From: a virus
Reading direction: 5' to 3' (one strand)
IMG/VR virus record: IMGVR_UViG_3300032307_000340
Location: 1-25,881 of that record
Length of the DNA stretch: 25,881 bases
Shown one piece after another: positions 4,151 through 24,102 of this stretch. Position 1 is the stretch's first letter, and every line of letters starts with the position of its first letter. Made by a program: the position numbers and the translations under genes. Below the pieces are notes generated by a model. The model was given only the letters and a program-made list of their open reading frames with translations. It ran no database searches and was not told the origin of the DNA.

Positions 4151-4714
4151 ATGTCATTGATTAACAAACCAGTACCAGAGTTTAAAACTCAAGCATTCCA
4201 CAACGGCAAGTTCGTTGAAGTTTCAAATGAAACCCTAAAAGGAAAATGGAATGTACTTATTTTTATGCCTGCCGCATTTACATTCAACTGCCCTACAGAA
4301 ATTGAAGATGCCGCAGAAAACTATGCAGAGTTTCAAAAGATGGGTGCAGAAGTTTACATTGTAACTACTGACACACACTTTAGCCACAAAGTATGGCATG
4401 AGACAAGTCCAGCAGTAGGTAAGGCACAGTTCCCACTAGTTGGTGACCCAACACACACTCTAACACGTGGTTTTGGTGTACACATCGACGAAGAAGGTCT
4501 AGCACTTCGCGGCACATTCATTATCAATCCAGAAGGTCATGTTAAGACTGCTGAAGTTCACAGCAACGAAATCGCTCGTGATGTAAGTGAAACACTTCGC
4601 AAGTTGAAGGCAGCACAGTACACCGCCGCTAACCCAGGTCAAGTTTGCCCTGCTAAGTGGAAAGAAGGTGCCGCCACATTGACACCAAGTTTGGATCTAG
4701 TAGGTAAGATCTAA
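4151..4714 (+). CDS. ahpC: Alkyl hydroperoxide reductase subunit C (2-Cys peroxiredoxin)
   Basis: The product is 187 residues, the same length as E. coli AhpC and aligning end to end from MSLIN to LDLVGKI. The peroxidatic Cys47 lies in FTFNCPTE and the resolving Cys166 in VCPAKW. The enzyme reduces H2O2, organic peroxides and peroxynitrite in the cytoplasm and is recycled by AhpF, encoded next. The ribosome site AAAGGAG is strong and the promoter dedicated. The closeness to bacterial AhpC suggests acquisition from a host. Peroxiredoxin in a phage is unusual. With the superoxide dismutase at 23554 it gives a superoxide-to-water pathway. Confidence 0.97.
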   Translation: MSLINKPVPEFKTQAFHNGKFVEVSNETLKGKWNVLIFMPAAFTFNCPTEIEDAAENYAEFQKMGAEVYIVTTDTHFSHKVWHETSPAVGKAQFPLVGDPTHTLTRGFGVHIDEEGLALRGTFIINPEGHVKTAEVHSNEIARDVSETLRKLKAAQYTAANPGQVCPAKWKEGAATLTPSLDLVGKI

Positions 4715-4723
4715 GGAGTAAAA

Positions 4724-6241
4724 ATGACATTAGACGCAAACATTAAAGCTCAGCTCGAGCAGTATCTTGCCTTGATGGAAGGTCCTGTGACTATTACTAC
4801 CTGGACTGACAACAGTAGCACCAGCACAGACATGATCGATTTACTGAACGAGATTGCGTCTATGTCAAGTCTAGTAACAGTTGAACCTGGCGCATTGGAT
4901 GGTACCCGCAGTCCTTCATTTAGAGTTGGAGAACGCATAGCGTTTGCCGGTATTCCAATGGGTCATGAGTTCACCAGTTTGATTATGGCTTTGCTACAAG
5001 TAAGTGGACGTAAGCCAAAAGTAGACGACAAAGTTATTGACCAAATCAAGAATATTCGAGGTGACTACACATTCACTACTTACATTAGCCTAAGCTGCCA
5101 CAACTGTCCAGATGTTGTTCAAGCACTTAATATTATGAGTGTATTGAATCCTGGCATCAAGCACACTATGGTAGACGGTGCAGCCTTCCAAGACGAAGTA
5201 ACTGCTAAGAACATTCTAGCAGTTCCTTATGTTGAGCTTAACGGCAAAGCATTTGGTAGTGGTCGTATGACCTTAGAAGAAATTCTAGCCAAGATGGGCA
5301 GTCAAGCAGATGTAAGTGACATTGATGGTAAGGAGTACGATGTACTTGTTATTGGTGGTGGGCCAGCAGGTGCTAGTGCGGCAGTATATGCGGCACGTAA
5401 AGGTATCCGCACAGGCATTGTTGCTGAACGATTTGGTGGGCAGGTTATGGACACAATGGGTATCGAAAACCTTATTGGTACCAAGTACACAGAAGGTCCT
5501 AAACTAGTCGCACAACTTGAAGAACACGTTAAAGAATACGCAGTTGATGTTATGAACTTACAACGTGCCAAGAGTATTGCTAAGAAAGACATGATTGAAG
5601 TTGAATTAGAGTCTGGCGCCAAATTAAAGTCTAAAACTGTTATTATTAGCACAGGTGCTCGCTGGAGAAATTTGGGCGTTCCTGGCGAAGCTGAATTTAA
5701 GAACAAGGGCGTAGCCTATTGTCCACATTGTGATGGACCACTGTTCAAAGGCAAGCACGTGGCAGTTATTGGCGGTGGCAATAGTGGTGTAGAAGCCGCC
5801 ATTGACCTTGCAGGCATTGTTGGGCATGTGACTGTATTTGAGTTTATGCCAGAACTCAAAGCAGATGCTGTACTTCAAAAACGTCTATATAGTTTGCCAA
5901 ATGTAACTGTACACAAAAATGTACAGGTAAAAGAAATTACAGGTGCAGATAAAGTAAACGGTATCAAGTATGTTGAGCGTGATACTAACACTGAACAACA
6001 TCTTGAACTTGAAGGAGTGTTCATACAAATTGGTCTTGTTCCTAACACAGACTGGATTGGTGATAGAATTGAACGCACTCGATTTGGTGAACTAGTAGTT
6101 GATACGCATGGTCGTACAGACATGCCTGGTGTATTTGCCGCAGGTGATTGTACTAATACACCTTACAAGCAAATCATTATCAGCATGGGCAGTGGTGCTA
6201 ATGCGGCATTAGGTGCTTTTGATTACATCATTCGTAACTAA
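4724..6241 (+). CDS. ahpF: Alkyl hydroperoxide reductase subunit F
   Basis: At 505 residues it is full length for AhpF. The N-terminal double thioredoxin-like domain carries Cys125/Cys128 in LSCHNCPD. The FAD-binding motif [12 protein letters not shown] lies near 208-220, the active-site disulfide Cys333/Cys336 in YCPHCDGP, and the NADH-binding motif [12 protein letters not shown] near 345-357. Electrons pass from NADH through FAD and both disulfides to AhpC. The start is 10 bases after the ahpC stop, with AAGGAG overlapping that stop, so the pair is co-transcribed. All redox cysteines are present, so it should be functional. Confidence 0.97.
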
Positions 6242-7939: not shown

Positions 7940-8100
7940 AATCGGGTACAAGATAAGGTATCGCTGGAATTCGTAACCAGCATCTAACACTAGACATCTT
8001 TAATGATTTTCAGTATGTATTTTATGGTAGTTTTCCCGTATAATGTTTATAAGTACTAATGCAAGACAAGTACTTATTTTGTTAACAAAGGAGAATTACT
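7940..8100 (+). promoter_or_regulatory. Leader and promoter region of pqqA
   Basis: A TATAAT lies at 8039-8044 with no good -35. Just after it AAGTACT (8051-8057) pairs with AGTACTT (8069-8075) to form a 7-bp hairpin at about the 5' end of the message. AAAGGAG (8087-8093) lies 7 bases before the ATG at 8101. Upstream, GCTGG/CCAGC near 7964-7982 forms a small stem after the glycosyltransferase gene. Confidence 0.55.
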
Positions 8101-8172
8101 ATGTGGACTAAACCAGAAGCAACAGAAATGCGTTTCGGTTTCGAAGTTACAATGTACGTAGCGAACCGTTAA
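8101..8172 (+). CDS. pqqA: PqqA, pyrroloquinoline quinone precursor peptide
   Basis: The 23-residue product begins MWTKP and ends GFEVTMYVANR. Length, the opening MWxKP and the Glu15-x-x-x-Tyr19 pair match the enterobacterial type of PqqA, which is also 23 residues. In known PQQ synthesis PqqE, with PqqD as carrier, cross-links that Glu and Tyr, after which the peptide is trimmed and oxidised to the redox cofactor PQQ. AAAGGAG precedes the ATG by 7 bases, a promoter-like region lies upstream and a strong terminator follows, so it is expressed alone. No pqqB, C, D or E lies in the window, so maturation would use host enzymes. Confidence 0.9.
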   Translation: MWTKPEATEMRFGFEVTMYVANR

Positions 8173-8189: not shown

Positions 8190-8219
8190 AAAACCGTTGT
8201 ATTTTTACAACGGTTTTTT
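8190..8219 (+). terminator. Strong intrinsic terminator after pqqA
   Basis: AAACCGTTGTA (8191-8201) pairs over 11 bp with TACAACGGTTT (8206-8216) around a TTTT loop, and T residues run to 8219. It isolates pqqA as a single-gene transcript. Confidence 0.9.
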
Positions 8220-8224
8220 ATTGG

Positions 8225-8254
8225 TTGACAAAACCAGAATACTGATGTTATACT
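8225..8254 (+). promoter_or_regulatory. Sigma70-type promoter for the small zinc-protein block
   Basis: TTGACA (8225-8230) and TATACT (8249-8254) are separated by 18 bases, or 17 if TTATAC is the -10. The start would be near 8261, giving a leader of about 25 bases with GAAAGG before the ATG at 8286. Confidence 0.75.
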
Positions 8255-8285: not shown

Positions 8286-8621
8286 ATGGAAGCGTTAAAA
8301 GAAATAACAGATTGGGGCGATCACAAAGCACCAAATCACACATATCTTTTGGACGGCACCACTTTGGTTGCTTACATTAAGCAAGGAGAGAAAGAACCTT
8401 TCTTTTTTAAAAACGGTATCAAAAATTTTAGCAAGAGTGGACGCAAGTTTGTTAAAGCAGACAAACAACTATTTGGCTCAACTGCAAAAAGCAATTTGAT
8501 TGAGGTTAACGGATCCAAAGGTAATGTTTACTTTGTGGATAAAGAAACAAAAACTTGTACATGTCCTGGATTTACTTTCCGTGGCACGTGCAAACACATA
8601 GGAGAAGTTTGTGGTAACTAG
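8286..8621 (+). CDS. SWIM zinc-finger-like protein
   Basis: The 111-residue protein ends in a SWIM-type motif: Cys91-x-Cys93, then Cys102-x-His104 in the segment CTCPGFTFRGTCKH. The preceding strand VYFVDKETKT fits the usual lead-in. SWIM fingers bind DNA or proteins. The N-terminal 60 residues resemble nothing I know. It heads a compact block of small genes and overlaps the next gene by 11 bases. The role is unknown. Confidence 0.75.
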   Translation: MEALKEITDWGDHKAPNHTYLLDGTTLVAYIKQGEKEPFFFKNGIKNFSKSGRKFVKADKQLFGSTAKSNLIEVNGSKGNVYFVDKETKTCTCPGFTFRGTCKHIGEVCGN

Positions 8622-12865: not shown

Positions 12866-13069
12866 ATGGTAACAGGAAAAGTAAAATGGTTTAACGATGC
12901 CAAAGGTTTTGGATTCATTACACCGGACAATGGCGGAGCAGACCTTTTTGCTCATTTCTCTCAGATCAATTCAAGTGGTTTCAAAACACTGCAAGAAGGT
13001 CAGAGTGTAAGATTTGAAATCACGATGGGTATGAAAGGTGAGCAGGCTAGTAACATTCAGCCAGCTTAA
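12866..13069 (+). CDS. Cold-shock-domain protein (CspA-like)
   Basis: A 67-residue protein that is one cold-shock domain. [11 protein letters not shown] opens it, KGFGFI is RNP1, and DLFAHFSQI contains RNP2. The order and length match bacterial CspA proteins, which bind single-stranded RNA and DNA and melt RNA structure. It lies directly before the acceptor piece of the tmRNA, with only a few bases between its stop and that RNA, so the two may share a transcript. Confidence 0.93.
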
Positions 13070-13072
13070 AGA

Positions 13073-13137
13073 ATAGTTGTAATCCCTTCAAAGCGAAGGA
13101 CTCTTGGACGCGGGTTCGACTCCCGCCTGGTCCACCA
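13073..13137 (+). ncRNA. ssrA: tmRNA acceptor piece (permuted ssrA, 3' tRNA-like half)
   Basis: CCTTC/GAAGG forms a hairpin at 13085-13099. It is followed by GGACGCGGGTTCGACTCCCG, the conserved tmRNA T-arm region, then CTGGTCC-A-CCA. The 3' strand CTGGTCC (13127-13133) pairs perfectly with GGGCCAG at 13227-13233, which lies downstream instead of upstream. The gene is therefore circularly permuted. The 3:70 pair is G-U, the alanine identity element. The exact 5' end is not certain. Confidence 0.9.
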
Positions 13138-13226
13138 TAAGGAGATTAGTATGAACGACGATTTGACCCACCTAGCAATAGGAGTAGTGGTTGTCTTAGT
13201 AGTTTTTGCGCTAGTACTCTTATGAT
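13138..13226 (+). other. Intervening segment of the permuted tmRNA
   Basis: These 89 bases lie between the CCA end of the acceptor piece and the 5' end of the coding piece. They should be cut out when the precursor matures, probably by RNase P at 13226/13227 and a 3' nuclease at 13137. They are almost wholly filled by a ribosome site and a small reading frame. Confidence 0.8.
13151..13225 (+). CDS. Single-pass membrane peptide inside the tmRNA intervening segment
   Basis: A 24-residue frame starting MNDDLTHLAIG and continuing as one unbroken run of Val, Leu, Ala and Phe to the stop. The charged N-terminus and about 15 hydrophobic residues fit a single membrane helix. AAGGAG at 13139-13144 lies 6 bases before the ATG, and the TGA ends one base before the mature 5' end of the tmRNA coding piece. 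It is too short for ordinary gene finders. The frame, the strong ribosome site and the tight fit make chance unlikely, but translation is unproven. Confidence 0.65.
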   Translation: MNDDLTHLAIGVVVVLVVFALVLL

Positions 13227-13443
13227 GGGCCAGCCATGGTTTCGACAGGGGTAGATAGTAGAGACGGCAACTGAGTAGGCGATGACTCTAAATCAAGCAA
13301 AACTAGTAAATGCAAACGCAAATACAACCGAAGAAGAAGTAATGACTTTCGTCTGGGATCTTCCAGCTAACGAAAGCCGTTACGCTTTAGCAGCCTAAGA
13401 AACTGCACTTCCGGGGCAACTATGCCTTGTCAAATAAAATAGT
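13227..13443 (+). ncRNA. ssrA: tmRNA coding piece (permuted ssrA)
   Basis: GGGCCAG (13227-13233) is the acceptor 5' strand. The D-like segment CATGGTTTCGACAGGGG is typical of tmRNA. A tag frame starts at the resume codon GCA (13312) and ends in TAA at 13396. After the tag, CTGCACTTCCGGGGCA can form the short pseudoknot stem expected in two-piece tmRNAs. A terminator begins at 13444. Together with the acceptor piece it would rescue stalled ribosomes. The mature 3' end of this piece cannot be fixed by eye. Confidence 0.9.
13312..13398 (+). other. tmRNA tag reading frame, 28 residues
   Basis: From the presumed resume codon GCA the frame reads ANANTTEEEV, then MTFVWDLPANESR, then YALAA and TAA. 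The last five residues equal the end of the E. coli tag, which is read by ClpXP and ClpAP with the adaptor SspB helping. The tag is far longer than the usual 8-15 residues. TAGTAAAT directly before GCA resembles the conserved sequence upstream of the resume codon. A later resume codon would shorten the tag. Confidence 0.7.
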
Positions 13444-13470
13444 GAAGGAGCCTTCGGGCTCTTTCTTTTT
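13444..13470 (+). terminator. Intrinsic terminator after tmRNA
   Basis: A 9-bp stem, GAAGGAGCC with GGCTCTTTC, closes on a UUCG tetraloop and is followed by TTTTT at 13466-13470. It ends the CspA-tmRNA region. Confidence 0.9.
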
Positions 13471-19752: not shown

Positions 19753-20445
19753 TTAGTCCTTGCGACCACCAAATAGTTGTAGCAAACTTAGGAACAGGTT
19801 AATGAAGTCCAAGTACAAGCTCAATGCTCCTGCTACTTCTGCTCTACCATCATTATCCAAACTGACCATCTCACGAATCTTTTGTGTGTCATAAGCGGTA
19901 AGACCTAAAAACACAATTACAGCAATAGCACTAATTACCATTTGCATTACAGTACTACCAATAAAAATATTGATAATGCTGGCAATGATAATAGCAATAA
20001 GACCAATAAACATAAATTGACCAATGCTGTCAAGATTCTTTTTGGTAAAGTATCCATAACCACTCATTACTGCGAACAATACTGCGGCTGACATAAATGC
20101 TGATACAATGCTACCTAAATTGTAAACAACAAAAATTGTAGCAAAGCTCAATCCCATCAGGGCCGCAAAACCATGTAAGAAAATTTGCAAAGCACTCTTG
20201 CTCATCTTTTCCATATTGAAACTAACTGCAAGAATTGCTACCAAGGGTGCAAAAATTACAAGCCACTTCATTGCACCTGTGAAAAAGAATTCCATTAGTG
20301 CGGCGCTGTTGCCAACTAGAAAACTAACAATCATCGATGTAATGACTGCCAATGCCATATGTCCGTAAACACGACCCATAGCACTGTTAATTTGCTGTGC
20401 TGAACGGTAAGTTGACAAACCGCCAGTATAACTCGATCCAAACAT
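19753..20445 (-). CDS. Bax inhibitor-1 / YccA-family membrane protein
   Basis: The 230-residue protein has about seven hydrophobic helices and the family ending, LTAYDTQKIREM then ALSLYLDFINLFLSLLQLFGGRKD. Bacterial relatives YccA and YbhL sit in the inner membrane; YccA inhibits the protease FtsH, and other members leak Ca2+. A phage copy could protect phage membrane proteins from FtsH or delay host death; that is inference. GGAGT precedes the ATG. It heads a three-gene unit with a clear promoter and palindrome. Confidence 0.92.
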   Translation of the reverse strand: MFGSSYTGGLSTYRSAQQINSAMGRVYGHMALAVITSMIVSFLVGNSAALMEFFFTGAMKWLVIFAPLVAILAVSFNMEKMSKSALQIFLHGFAALMGLSFATIFVVYNLGSIVSAFMSAAVLFAVMSGYGYFTKKNLDSIGQFMFIGLIAIIIASIINIFIGSTVMQMVISAIAVIVFLGLTAYDTQKIREMVSLDNDGRAEVAGALSLYLDFINLFLSLLQLFGGRKD

Positions 20446-22916: not shown

Positions 22917-23573
22917 TTAATATTTTCCTGAAGCAAGTACTATCTTGCAAATATGTTCTAATCTTTCAATGTGTTCGTATGCTCTCCACGGACTTGTATC
23001 TATAGCAACCACCCCGTGTCCTTTAATACCCACAATGTCGTAGGCAATATTGCCACGATCATCTAATTCTAACCGATAATGACATTGATCAGCTAGCTCT
23101 TGACTAATTGGAGGTACATCTCCAACATTGGGTGCTACCTTTGTATAACGATTAAGTTCTGGAAATGCAGAACTAATTGTACTTAAATCAATTCCGGCAT
23201 GCATGGCTGCAATACAATAAGTTGGATGTACGTGTACTACTACACGAACATCATTACTATGCTGACCCATTTCACGTTGTAGACCAAAGTGTAACGGCAA
23301 TTCGCCACTAGGCTTTAGATTAGCACTGATATCTGAATAAGGAAGGTCACGCCAATTATAATTAAAAGATGCAGTGCCACTGCCACTTTGAATAGATCTA
23401 TCAATGCTTATCTTTTTAAATTGATCTGGCTGTAGAGTTTGCTTACGTACACCGCTAGGGGTAATGTAAAAGTGATCACGGTCATGATGACGTATTGACA
23501 CGTTACCATCACGACTAGTAATCCAGTTACGCTTGTAAGCGTCTACCATAATGTCACATATCGTTTCTAACAT
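22917..23573 (-). CDS. Class II aldolase/adducin-family protein
   Basis: The 218-residue protein has the family's zinc site: His114 and His116 in VVHVHPTY and His186 in GIKGHGVVA. GNVSIR (24-29) and PSGELPLH hold the phosphate loop and the acidic Glu91. Relatives are fuculose- and ribulose-phosphate aldolases and epimerases and methylthioribulose-phosphate dehydratase. The substrate cannot be fixed by eye. It lies between superoxide dismutase and nrdB, an odd place for carbon metabolism. A role in salvage of deoxy sugars or methylthio compounds is inference. The start overlaps the SOD gene by 20 bases; Met9 is another possible start. Confidence 0.85.
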   Translation of the reverse strand: MLETICDIMVDAYKRNWITSRDGNVSIRHHDRDHFYITPSGVRKQTLQPDQFKKISIDRSIQSGSGTASFNYNWRDLPYSDISANLKPSGELPLHFGLQREMGQHSNDVRVVVHVHPTYCIAAMHAGIDLSTISSAFPELNRYTKVAPNVGDVPPISQELADQCHYRLELDDRGNIAYDIVGIKGHGVVAIDTSPWRAYEHIERLEHICKIVLASGKY

Positions 23574-24102
23574 TTACGTGTTCCCAATTAATAATTTTCC
23601 ATTGATTCTCTAAGTATTTTTTCTTGTCTGCTTGGTAGTCTAATGCCCAAGCATGTTCCCACCAATCAATTAATAATACAATGTCTTTTTTAACTTCATG
23701 ATTCTTGATAGTTTTAATCTTGCCGTCTTTAGCAAGATAGACCCAACCACTGCCTTGTATGCCCATTGCTACTTTGAGAAACTCTTCTTTGAACTTGTCA
23801 AATGACGTATAGTGTTCTTCAATGAATGTTAGTATACCGCCTTTAGGTTTGTTATTACTTGGCTTCTGATATTGTTGAAACAATATGTTGTGTAGGAATA
23901 CGCCTGCTTCATTAAACACAGGATCACCTTCGCCAGCATTATACCGTTTAGCGTAAGTTTTAGCAAGATTGTCGTAATGATACTCTAAGGTTATTTTTGA
24001 AATGGCTGGATCTAAAGCATCCATTTCATAGGGCAGACTTTTAATTTCTAACTTGTCGGGCTTGCCTTCTAGTAAGACGTTTCTAATAAAACTGTAGGTC
24101 AT
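23554..24102 (-). CDS. Fe/Mn-type superoxide dismutase
   Basis: The 182-residue protein aligns with Fe/Mn SODs. LPYEMDALDPAIS then LEYHYDNL holds His42, VFLHNILF holds His71, and DWWEHAWALDY holds Asp146 and His150, giving the full metal set. GSGWVYL and the ending QWKIINW are also typical. Four residues before His71 is Gly, as in Mn enzymes. The second-shell Gln is not obvious, with NHE in its place, so metal use is uncertain. The usual second His after HYG is missing (HYDNL). It removes superoxide in the cytoplasm. It overlaps nrdA by 4 bases (ATGA), so SOD is made together with ribonucleotide reductase. Confidence 0.92.
   Translation of the reverse strand: MTYSFIRNVLLEGKPDKLEIKSLPYEMDALDPAISKITLEYHYDNLAKTYAKRYNAGEGDPVFNEAGVFLHNILFQQYQKPSNNKPKGGILTFIEEHYTSFDKFKEEFLKVAMGIQGSGWVYLAKDGKIKTIKNHEVKKDIVLLIDWWEHAWALDYQADKKKYLENQWKIINWEHVNVRNDM

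Follow-up and report, generated by a model that had tools for sequence, protein, structure and literature searches.

The window analysed here, a 25,881-base (25.9-kb) IMG/VR record, is a fragment and not a whole phage genome. It contains a short frame running from ATG to TAA that encodes the 23-residue peptide MWTKPEATEMRFGFEVTMYVANR (Table 1). An earlier sequence-only reading of the window had taken this frame for pqqA, the gene for the PQQ precursor peptide, and the search against PqqA families that it proposed bore out this assignment. The peptide matched the Pfam PqqA model PF08042 with an E value of 1.3e-10 (41.4 bits, cut-off 21.1) and the NCBIfam equivalog model TIGR02107 'PqqA' with an E value of 4.1e-11 (42.5 bits, cut-off 20). 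In addition, a relaxed PqqA DNA pattern matched once in the window and not at all in 100 shuffles. The length of 23 aa is inside the usual PqqA range of about 22–25 residues. The glutamate and tyrosine of PqqA are the residues that are cross-linked by PqqE and become PQQ; as had been claimed, both are in place in the window peptide, four residues apart, as Glu15 and Tyr19. The strong ribosome-binding site described in the same reading was found as AAAGGAG. The terminator was also present, although its stem counts 12 base pairs rather than the 11 reported.

A terminator closes pqqA and the next gene, which encodes a SWIM zinc-finger protein, has its own sigma-70-like promoter. Thus, the simplest reading is that the window pqqA forms a transcription unit by itself. 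No pqqB, pqqC, pqqD or pqqE gene was recognised in the 25.9-kb fragment, either by reading the list of open reading frames or by family scans, which agrees with the claim that none of the modifying enzymes is nearby. The gene had also been called free-standing. It does stand alone, but this is less unusual than had been supposed, as Methylophilaceae scatter extra pqqA copies themselves (PMC4109929).

Table 1. Features of the pqqA locus and of other parts of the window.
Feature	Position	Strand	Basis or remark
Putative pqqA operator (dyad element), TTAATGATTTTCAGTAT	8000-8016	+	Host-trained matrix, 15.6 bits; 101 nt before start codon
−10-like hexamer TATAAT	8039-8044	+	Read from sequence; 39 nt after element start
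Ribosome-binding site AAAGGAG	8087-8093	+	Read from sequence; 7 nt before ATG
pqqA, PQQ precursor peptide	8101-8172	+	PF08042 and TIGR02107, far over cut-offs
Intrinsic terminator, 12-pair stem, 4-base loop, T tail	8190-8217	+	Closes pqqA unit
Sigma-70-like promoter of next gene, TTGACA-18-TATACT	8225-8254	+	11/12 matches
SWIM zinc-finger protein, downstream neighbour	8286-8621	+	Pfam PF04434; outside pqqA unit
Betaproteobacterial permuted (two-piece) tmRNA	13034-13468	+	Rfam RF01850, 111.5 bits; RF04321, 130.6 bits
Complete ahpC-ahpF pair	4151-6241	+	TIGR03137, 310.9 bits; TIGR03140, 764 bits
Cold-shock-like gene	12866-13069		Adjoins tmRNA
Multi-pass membrane protein	19753-20445	−	Resembles Bax-inhibitor-1 type proteins (by eye)
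SOD-like gene	23554-24102	−	

That the window is a fragment of a T4-like phage is supported by its NrdA, which is nearest to the NrdA of T4-like phages, and by a syntenic relative that also bears pqqA (G020). The order of genes in G020 is much like that in the window, with a GDSL protein, pqqA, the phosphatase-like 9300 gene and ClpP, and it continues in the same way through the 11524 and 12093 genes, the 13965 gene and PAAR. A terminator resembling that of the window was found in G020 as well. NrdB of the window is, like NrdA, T4-like, and PAAR is encoded as well. By origin, the window pqqA fits a viral auxiliary metabolic gene, as a metabolic gene acquired from the host and carried by a true virus. 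NrdA at about 90% identity was present in the best 80 IMG/VR contigs. Kinship of NrdA proved a poor guide to pqqA, which was carried by 4 of 50 NrdA relatives of the window, mostly fragments.

The window has six or seven tRNA genes at its left end, and the cold-shock-like gene adjoins its tmRNA. The complete ahpC-ahpF pair and the SOD-like gene make up a phage-borne peroxide and superoxide defence set, and AhpC is encoded within about 1 kb of pqqA in two further phages (G037 and G048). The multi-pass membrane protein has a relative at 41% identity in a 372-kb phage that encodes pmoC (L415:7263-7967, minus strand).

The sequence-only reading had pointed to a PQQ-making, perhaps methylotrophic, host. 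The PqqA sequence, the betaproteobacterial tmRNA and the relatives of the window support this view, and from them we infer that the host was a Methylophilales methylotroph. A strict phage-like peptide pattern was run over 84,980 prokaryote species genomes and matched at least 120 stretches. The 80 that were listed belonged to Methylophilales, including Methylotenera, Methylophilus, Methylobacillus, Methylopumilus and OM43, or to loosely named proteobacterial bins. In 21 of 120 such host loci, pqqB-E genes were near pqqA. We also sampled 150 Methylophilaceae genomes, the family being fixed via Methylophilus methylotrophus (G054). PqqA was found in 149 of these genomes at 1–12 copies each, and PqqE scored over its cut-off in 140, which speaks against a host lacking pqqCDE. 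The peptide most frequent in phages, MWTTPAATEMRFGFEVTMYVMNK, is also encoded without any change in host operons, and the window peptide departs from the operonic PqqA of two host loci (L232 and L282) at a single residue, A21 for C21. AhpF was tried as a host marker and set aside; its best identity was 66% in both the family and the class sample, which is consistent with Methylophilales.

Multiplication of pqqA alone has already been seen on the host chromosome. Methylophilaceae have many pqqA genes and usually one set of the other pqq genes (PMC4109929), and the expression of a free-standing pqqA3 resembles that of the operonic copy, with both going up as PQQ output does (PMC9851590). In addition to single copies scattered over the genome, some Methylophilales, marine ones among them, have pqqA genes in tandem at a spacing of about 200 bp (L225, L228, L284 and genome G051).

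A tblastn search of 50,697 phage records (INPHARED) gave 12 matches, consisting of nine Methylophilales phage isolates (P19250A, Venkman, MEP301, MEP401, MEP402 and four Melnitz phages), an uncultured phage and two records that bear the name Acinetobacter phage. The last two were excluded. One of them, 'Acinetobacter phage MD-2021a' (L008, CAKLQF020000010.1), is bacterial DNA that contains the complete pqqABCDE operon as well as ppk; the other is a second record of that name, CAKLQH020000055.1, which also matches PqqA. Further Methylophilales phages that are listed in the taxonomy, which may be absent from the collection or may lack the gene, gave no match (HIM624-A, MEP431-434 and Venkman EXVC038S). 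None of the isolate or uncultured-phage copies is annotated as pqqA, and the feature under the match is either absent or an unnamed protein. Owing to its small size, the gene had escaped annotation in all of the cultured methylophages checked. The carriers differ widely and include a T4-like Kyanoviridae member, a Zobellviridae member and siphovirus types.

With a DNA pattern, lone pqqA was found in at least 120 IMG/VR contigs, a count that, like the others from our collection scans, is a lower bound and not a prevalence per complete phage genome. All of the copies listed encode a peptide of 22–25 residues, and most have a clear ribosome-binding site. No PqqB, PqqC, PqqD or PqqE homolog was found in the phage pqqA loci examined, and PqqE scored over its cut-off in none of 50 whole pqqA-bearing records. 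Thus, the phage gene is PqqA and not a PQQ operon. A methanotroph-like class, MKWETPxxxDLRFGFEVTMYI, was found in 41 contigs. Two of these, with lengths of 171,592 and 372,173 bases, encode pmoC/AmoC in addition. In these 171-kb and 372-kb pmoC phages (L347 and L358) the lone methanotroph-type pqqA is followed by a GGGCTAATTAGCCC hairpin. The enterobacterial-type pattern gave only two contigs, with Klebsiella-like peptides; in both cases pqqA is no more than about 500 nt from where the sequence stops, probably at a prophage edge.

We found that the phage peptide is under purifying selection. Over 120 distinct phage pqqA sequences pN/pS was 0.19, and variation was highest at third codon positions. 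Several positions of PqqA were specified in the search patterns, and the test with free positions covered 15 and 19 only; among the matches listed, Glu15 and Tyr19 were present in 120 of 120 phage copies. A terminator-like hairpin followed 48 of 129 phage pqqA genes compared to 47 of 1608 other ORF ends (37% vs 3%), an enrichment with an odds ratio of about 20 (p ~1e-32). Such a hairpin also followed 70 of 129 host pqqA copies.

Inspection of the upstream region revealed a conserved block about 100 nt before pqqA in four diverged phages, which recurs in unrelated phages. In hosts this block takes the form of a 17-bp dyad, for example CTAATGA-TTT-TCATTAG; the sequence of the putative pqqA operator is CTCATGATTTTCATGAG, and the window has a single match to the pattern. 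A matrix of 17 columns was trained on host sequences alone and applied with a threshold of 8 bits. It scored above this threshold upstream of 115 of 125 host pqqA genes (92%) and 115 of 155 phage pqqA genes (74%), including 80 of 109 non-redundant phage upstream regions with little similarity to one another outside the element. In the controls, matches were obtained for 6 of 1065 phage ORFs (0.6%), 5 of 691 host ORFs and 25 of 1550 dinucleotide shuffles, the control upstream sets including some false ORFs. For methanotroph-type phages, the host-trained matrix gave 0 of 38. The strict operator pattern was present upstream of 80 of 155 phage pqqA genes, and the remainder of the 1.38 Mb of phage loci contained no further match. 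Exact matches to the pattern numbered 24 in 12 host genomes, 16 of them about 105–125 bp upstream of pqqA, and a reversed control pattern gave 4 matches. About six of the other eight host matches fall within coding frames or at their edges and seem to be fortuitous. Two matches away from pqqA precede an orthologous gene for a small secreted protein (L416:2591-3238 and L417:2651-3331, from G061 and G062), the only repeated target of this kind that we saw.

The median distance from the element to the start codon is about 93 nt in phages compared to about 126 nt in hosts. A TANWWT hexamer was present at the element spacing in 45 of 106 phage copies, as opposed to 19 of 106 at a control offset. 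The TATAAT hexamer of the window was not called by a consensus promoter scan because it is not preceded by a TTGACA-like −35 sequence. Instead, the phage element appears to occupy the position of the −35 box, as is typical of an activator-dependent or repressible promoter. The pqqA operator would be bound by a putative host regulator.

XoxF-type methanol dehydrogenase (MDH) was encoded in 2 of the 50 pqqA-bearing records (G037 and G235), both with an Asp-Tyr-Asp motif that we take to mark the lanthanide XoxF type. In G037, an NrdA relative of the window, the MDH gene (L411, 5119-6984) is about 4 kb from pqqA, and in G235 (L414, 8990-13784) a formate dehydrogenase alpha gene directly follows MDH. 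G037 also encodes PstS, a porin-like protein and a CxxCH protein; together the two phages have several genes for periplasmic functions and C1 oxidation. At 2 of 50 records, pqqA does not as a rule go together with a phage MDH. With MDH in so few pqqA phages, it is chiefly the physiology of the host that would tie phage pqqA to methanol oxidation.

We consider it likely that the phage adds a host-controlled pqqA that would feed PqqD and PqqE, so that PQQ production and methanol oxidation keep up during infection. From the sequence, the selection and the control elements described above we infer transcription of the phage gene, conversion of its peptide by host enzymes and an effect on host metabolism. 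The proposed sequence of events is that a T4-like phage acquired pqqA from a Methylophilales host and retained it as a small, separate transcription unit, which host RNA polymerase and the host pqqA regulator would transcribe during infection. The phage peptide would be bound by host PqqD and cross-linked by host PqqE, and the remaining host Pqq enzymes would process the cross-linked peptide to PQQ. In the PqqA-PqqD-PqqE pathway one PqqA is consumed per PQQ made, so that copy number and expression of the peptide set the substrate supply, and an extra, strongly translated copy would raise that supply or replace what had been lost. Should the phage shut down or degrade the host chromosome, the supply from host pqqA would fall, and phage pqqA, wired to host pqqA control, would restore or raise it. 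PQQ would then load the XoxF/MxaF methanol dehydrogenase, and the energy and carbon supply of the methylotroph would continue while the phage replicates. Cyanophage psbA and similar photosynthesis genes are host-derived and keep host energy metabolism running during infection in a comparable way. However, psbA replaces a labile protein, whereas pqqA would replace a peptide that is consumed one for one.

Several other explanations of the lone gene were weighed. The phage peptide could be a decoy that ties up PqqD/PqqE or yields another product, thereby lowering host PQQ or methanol oxidation. PqqD binds PqqA as a chaperone, and a lone precursor without the enzymes could compete. However, phage peptides identical to operonic host PqqA exist, Glu15 and Tyr19 are invariant across the phage copies listed, and sister phages add their own MDH, which points to more rather than less PQQ; a decoy is therefore very unlikely. 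It is also improbable, if somewhat less so, that the PQQ serves an end other than MDH, such as another PQQ dehydrogenase or protection from oxidants. The ahpC, ahpF and SOD-like genes in the window record and the proximity of AhpC to pqqA in G037 and G048 would fit such an end. Conversely, the pqqA phages infect methanol- or methane-oxidising clades, the enterobacterial-type pattern was confined to two contigs, and MDH is present in two pqqA phages.

Hosts with 1–12 pqqA copies per genome would make pick-up easy, and the gene could be a neutral passenger acquired repeatedly from such multi-copy hosts. The pN/pS of 0.19 already disfavours this explanation. The conserved promoter architecture and terminators, the retention of pqqA in a syntenic but diverged relative, and its presence in unrelated phage types likewise make a passenger highly improbable. 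Finally, the phage might need the element and not the peptide, with many copies titrating the host regulator. The element is indeed common to the host and most phage copies and is almost absent elsewhere in the phage loci. Nevertheless, the coding part is under strong purifying selection, the ribosome-binding site is conserved, terminators are enriched and about one quarter of the phage copies have no scoring element, so that we regard titration as extremely unlikely.

Supply of PqqA to the host pathway thus being our preferred explanation for the window, we also favour, with moderate confidence, a joint group-wide reading. Methylophages as a group may have tapped the host pqqA control circuit, such that one putative host regulator would switch on host and phage pqqA copies together, and supply of a consumable substrate may be a general viral strategy. 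As part of the same reading, lone pqqA would mark out phages whose hosts depend on PQQ to oxidise methane or methanol.

Phage pqqA as such was already known. A viral population from Lake Baikal, VP_266, described in 2020, is T4-like with a predicted Methylophilaceae host and encodes PqqA and methanol dehydrogenase; its authors read PqqA as a help for methanol oxidation (PMC7678222). The window resembles VP_266 in being from a T4-like phage of Methylophilaceae that encodes PqqA. However, VP_266 is a single case with MDH in the same population, whereas here a lone gene was found in at least 120 contigs and in all nine Methylophilales isolates identified. To this are added an operator of the host type, a terminator belonging to the gene itself, an estimate of selection and a second class, of the methanotroph type. 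The extra pqqA copies of Methylophilaceae (PMC4109929; PMC9851590) share with the phage copies the same peptide, the lack of linkage to pqqB-E, the same dyad and often a terminator, but they are chromosomal and differ in the spacing of the element from the start codon given above. The pmoC gene of large freshwater methanotroph phages (PMC7674155) is likewise a lone piece of a C1 oxidation pathway on a phage; it encodes an enzyme subunit, whereas pqqA encodes the substrate of a cofactor pathway. PQQ does not appear in the main text of that paper. Neither is pqqA mentioned in the main texts on Venkman, MEP301 and MEP401/402 or in that of a viral methane gene survey, and the Melnitz main text has PQQ solely as a medium additive, with no pqqA. 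The medium published for OM43 includes PQQ at 1 nM (PMC9004378). In the open-access journal literature searched, we did not find the near-general occurrence in methylophages, the methanotroph class or the shared operator. The generality of phage pqqA and its shared operator therefore appear unreported.

Most viral metabolic genes encode enzymes. In contrast, pqqA encodes the raw material of a cofactor, which predicts that substrate supply limits PQQ during infection. The gene offers a simple sequence marker by which viruses may be assigned to methanol and methane oxidisers, and it connects infection by viruses with the turnover of methanol and methane in lake and coastal marine waters. In addition, the conserved pqqA operator should help to find the factor that regulates PQQ synthesis in Methylophilaceae.
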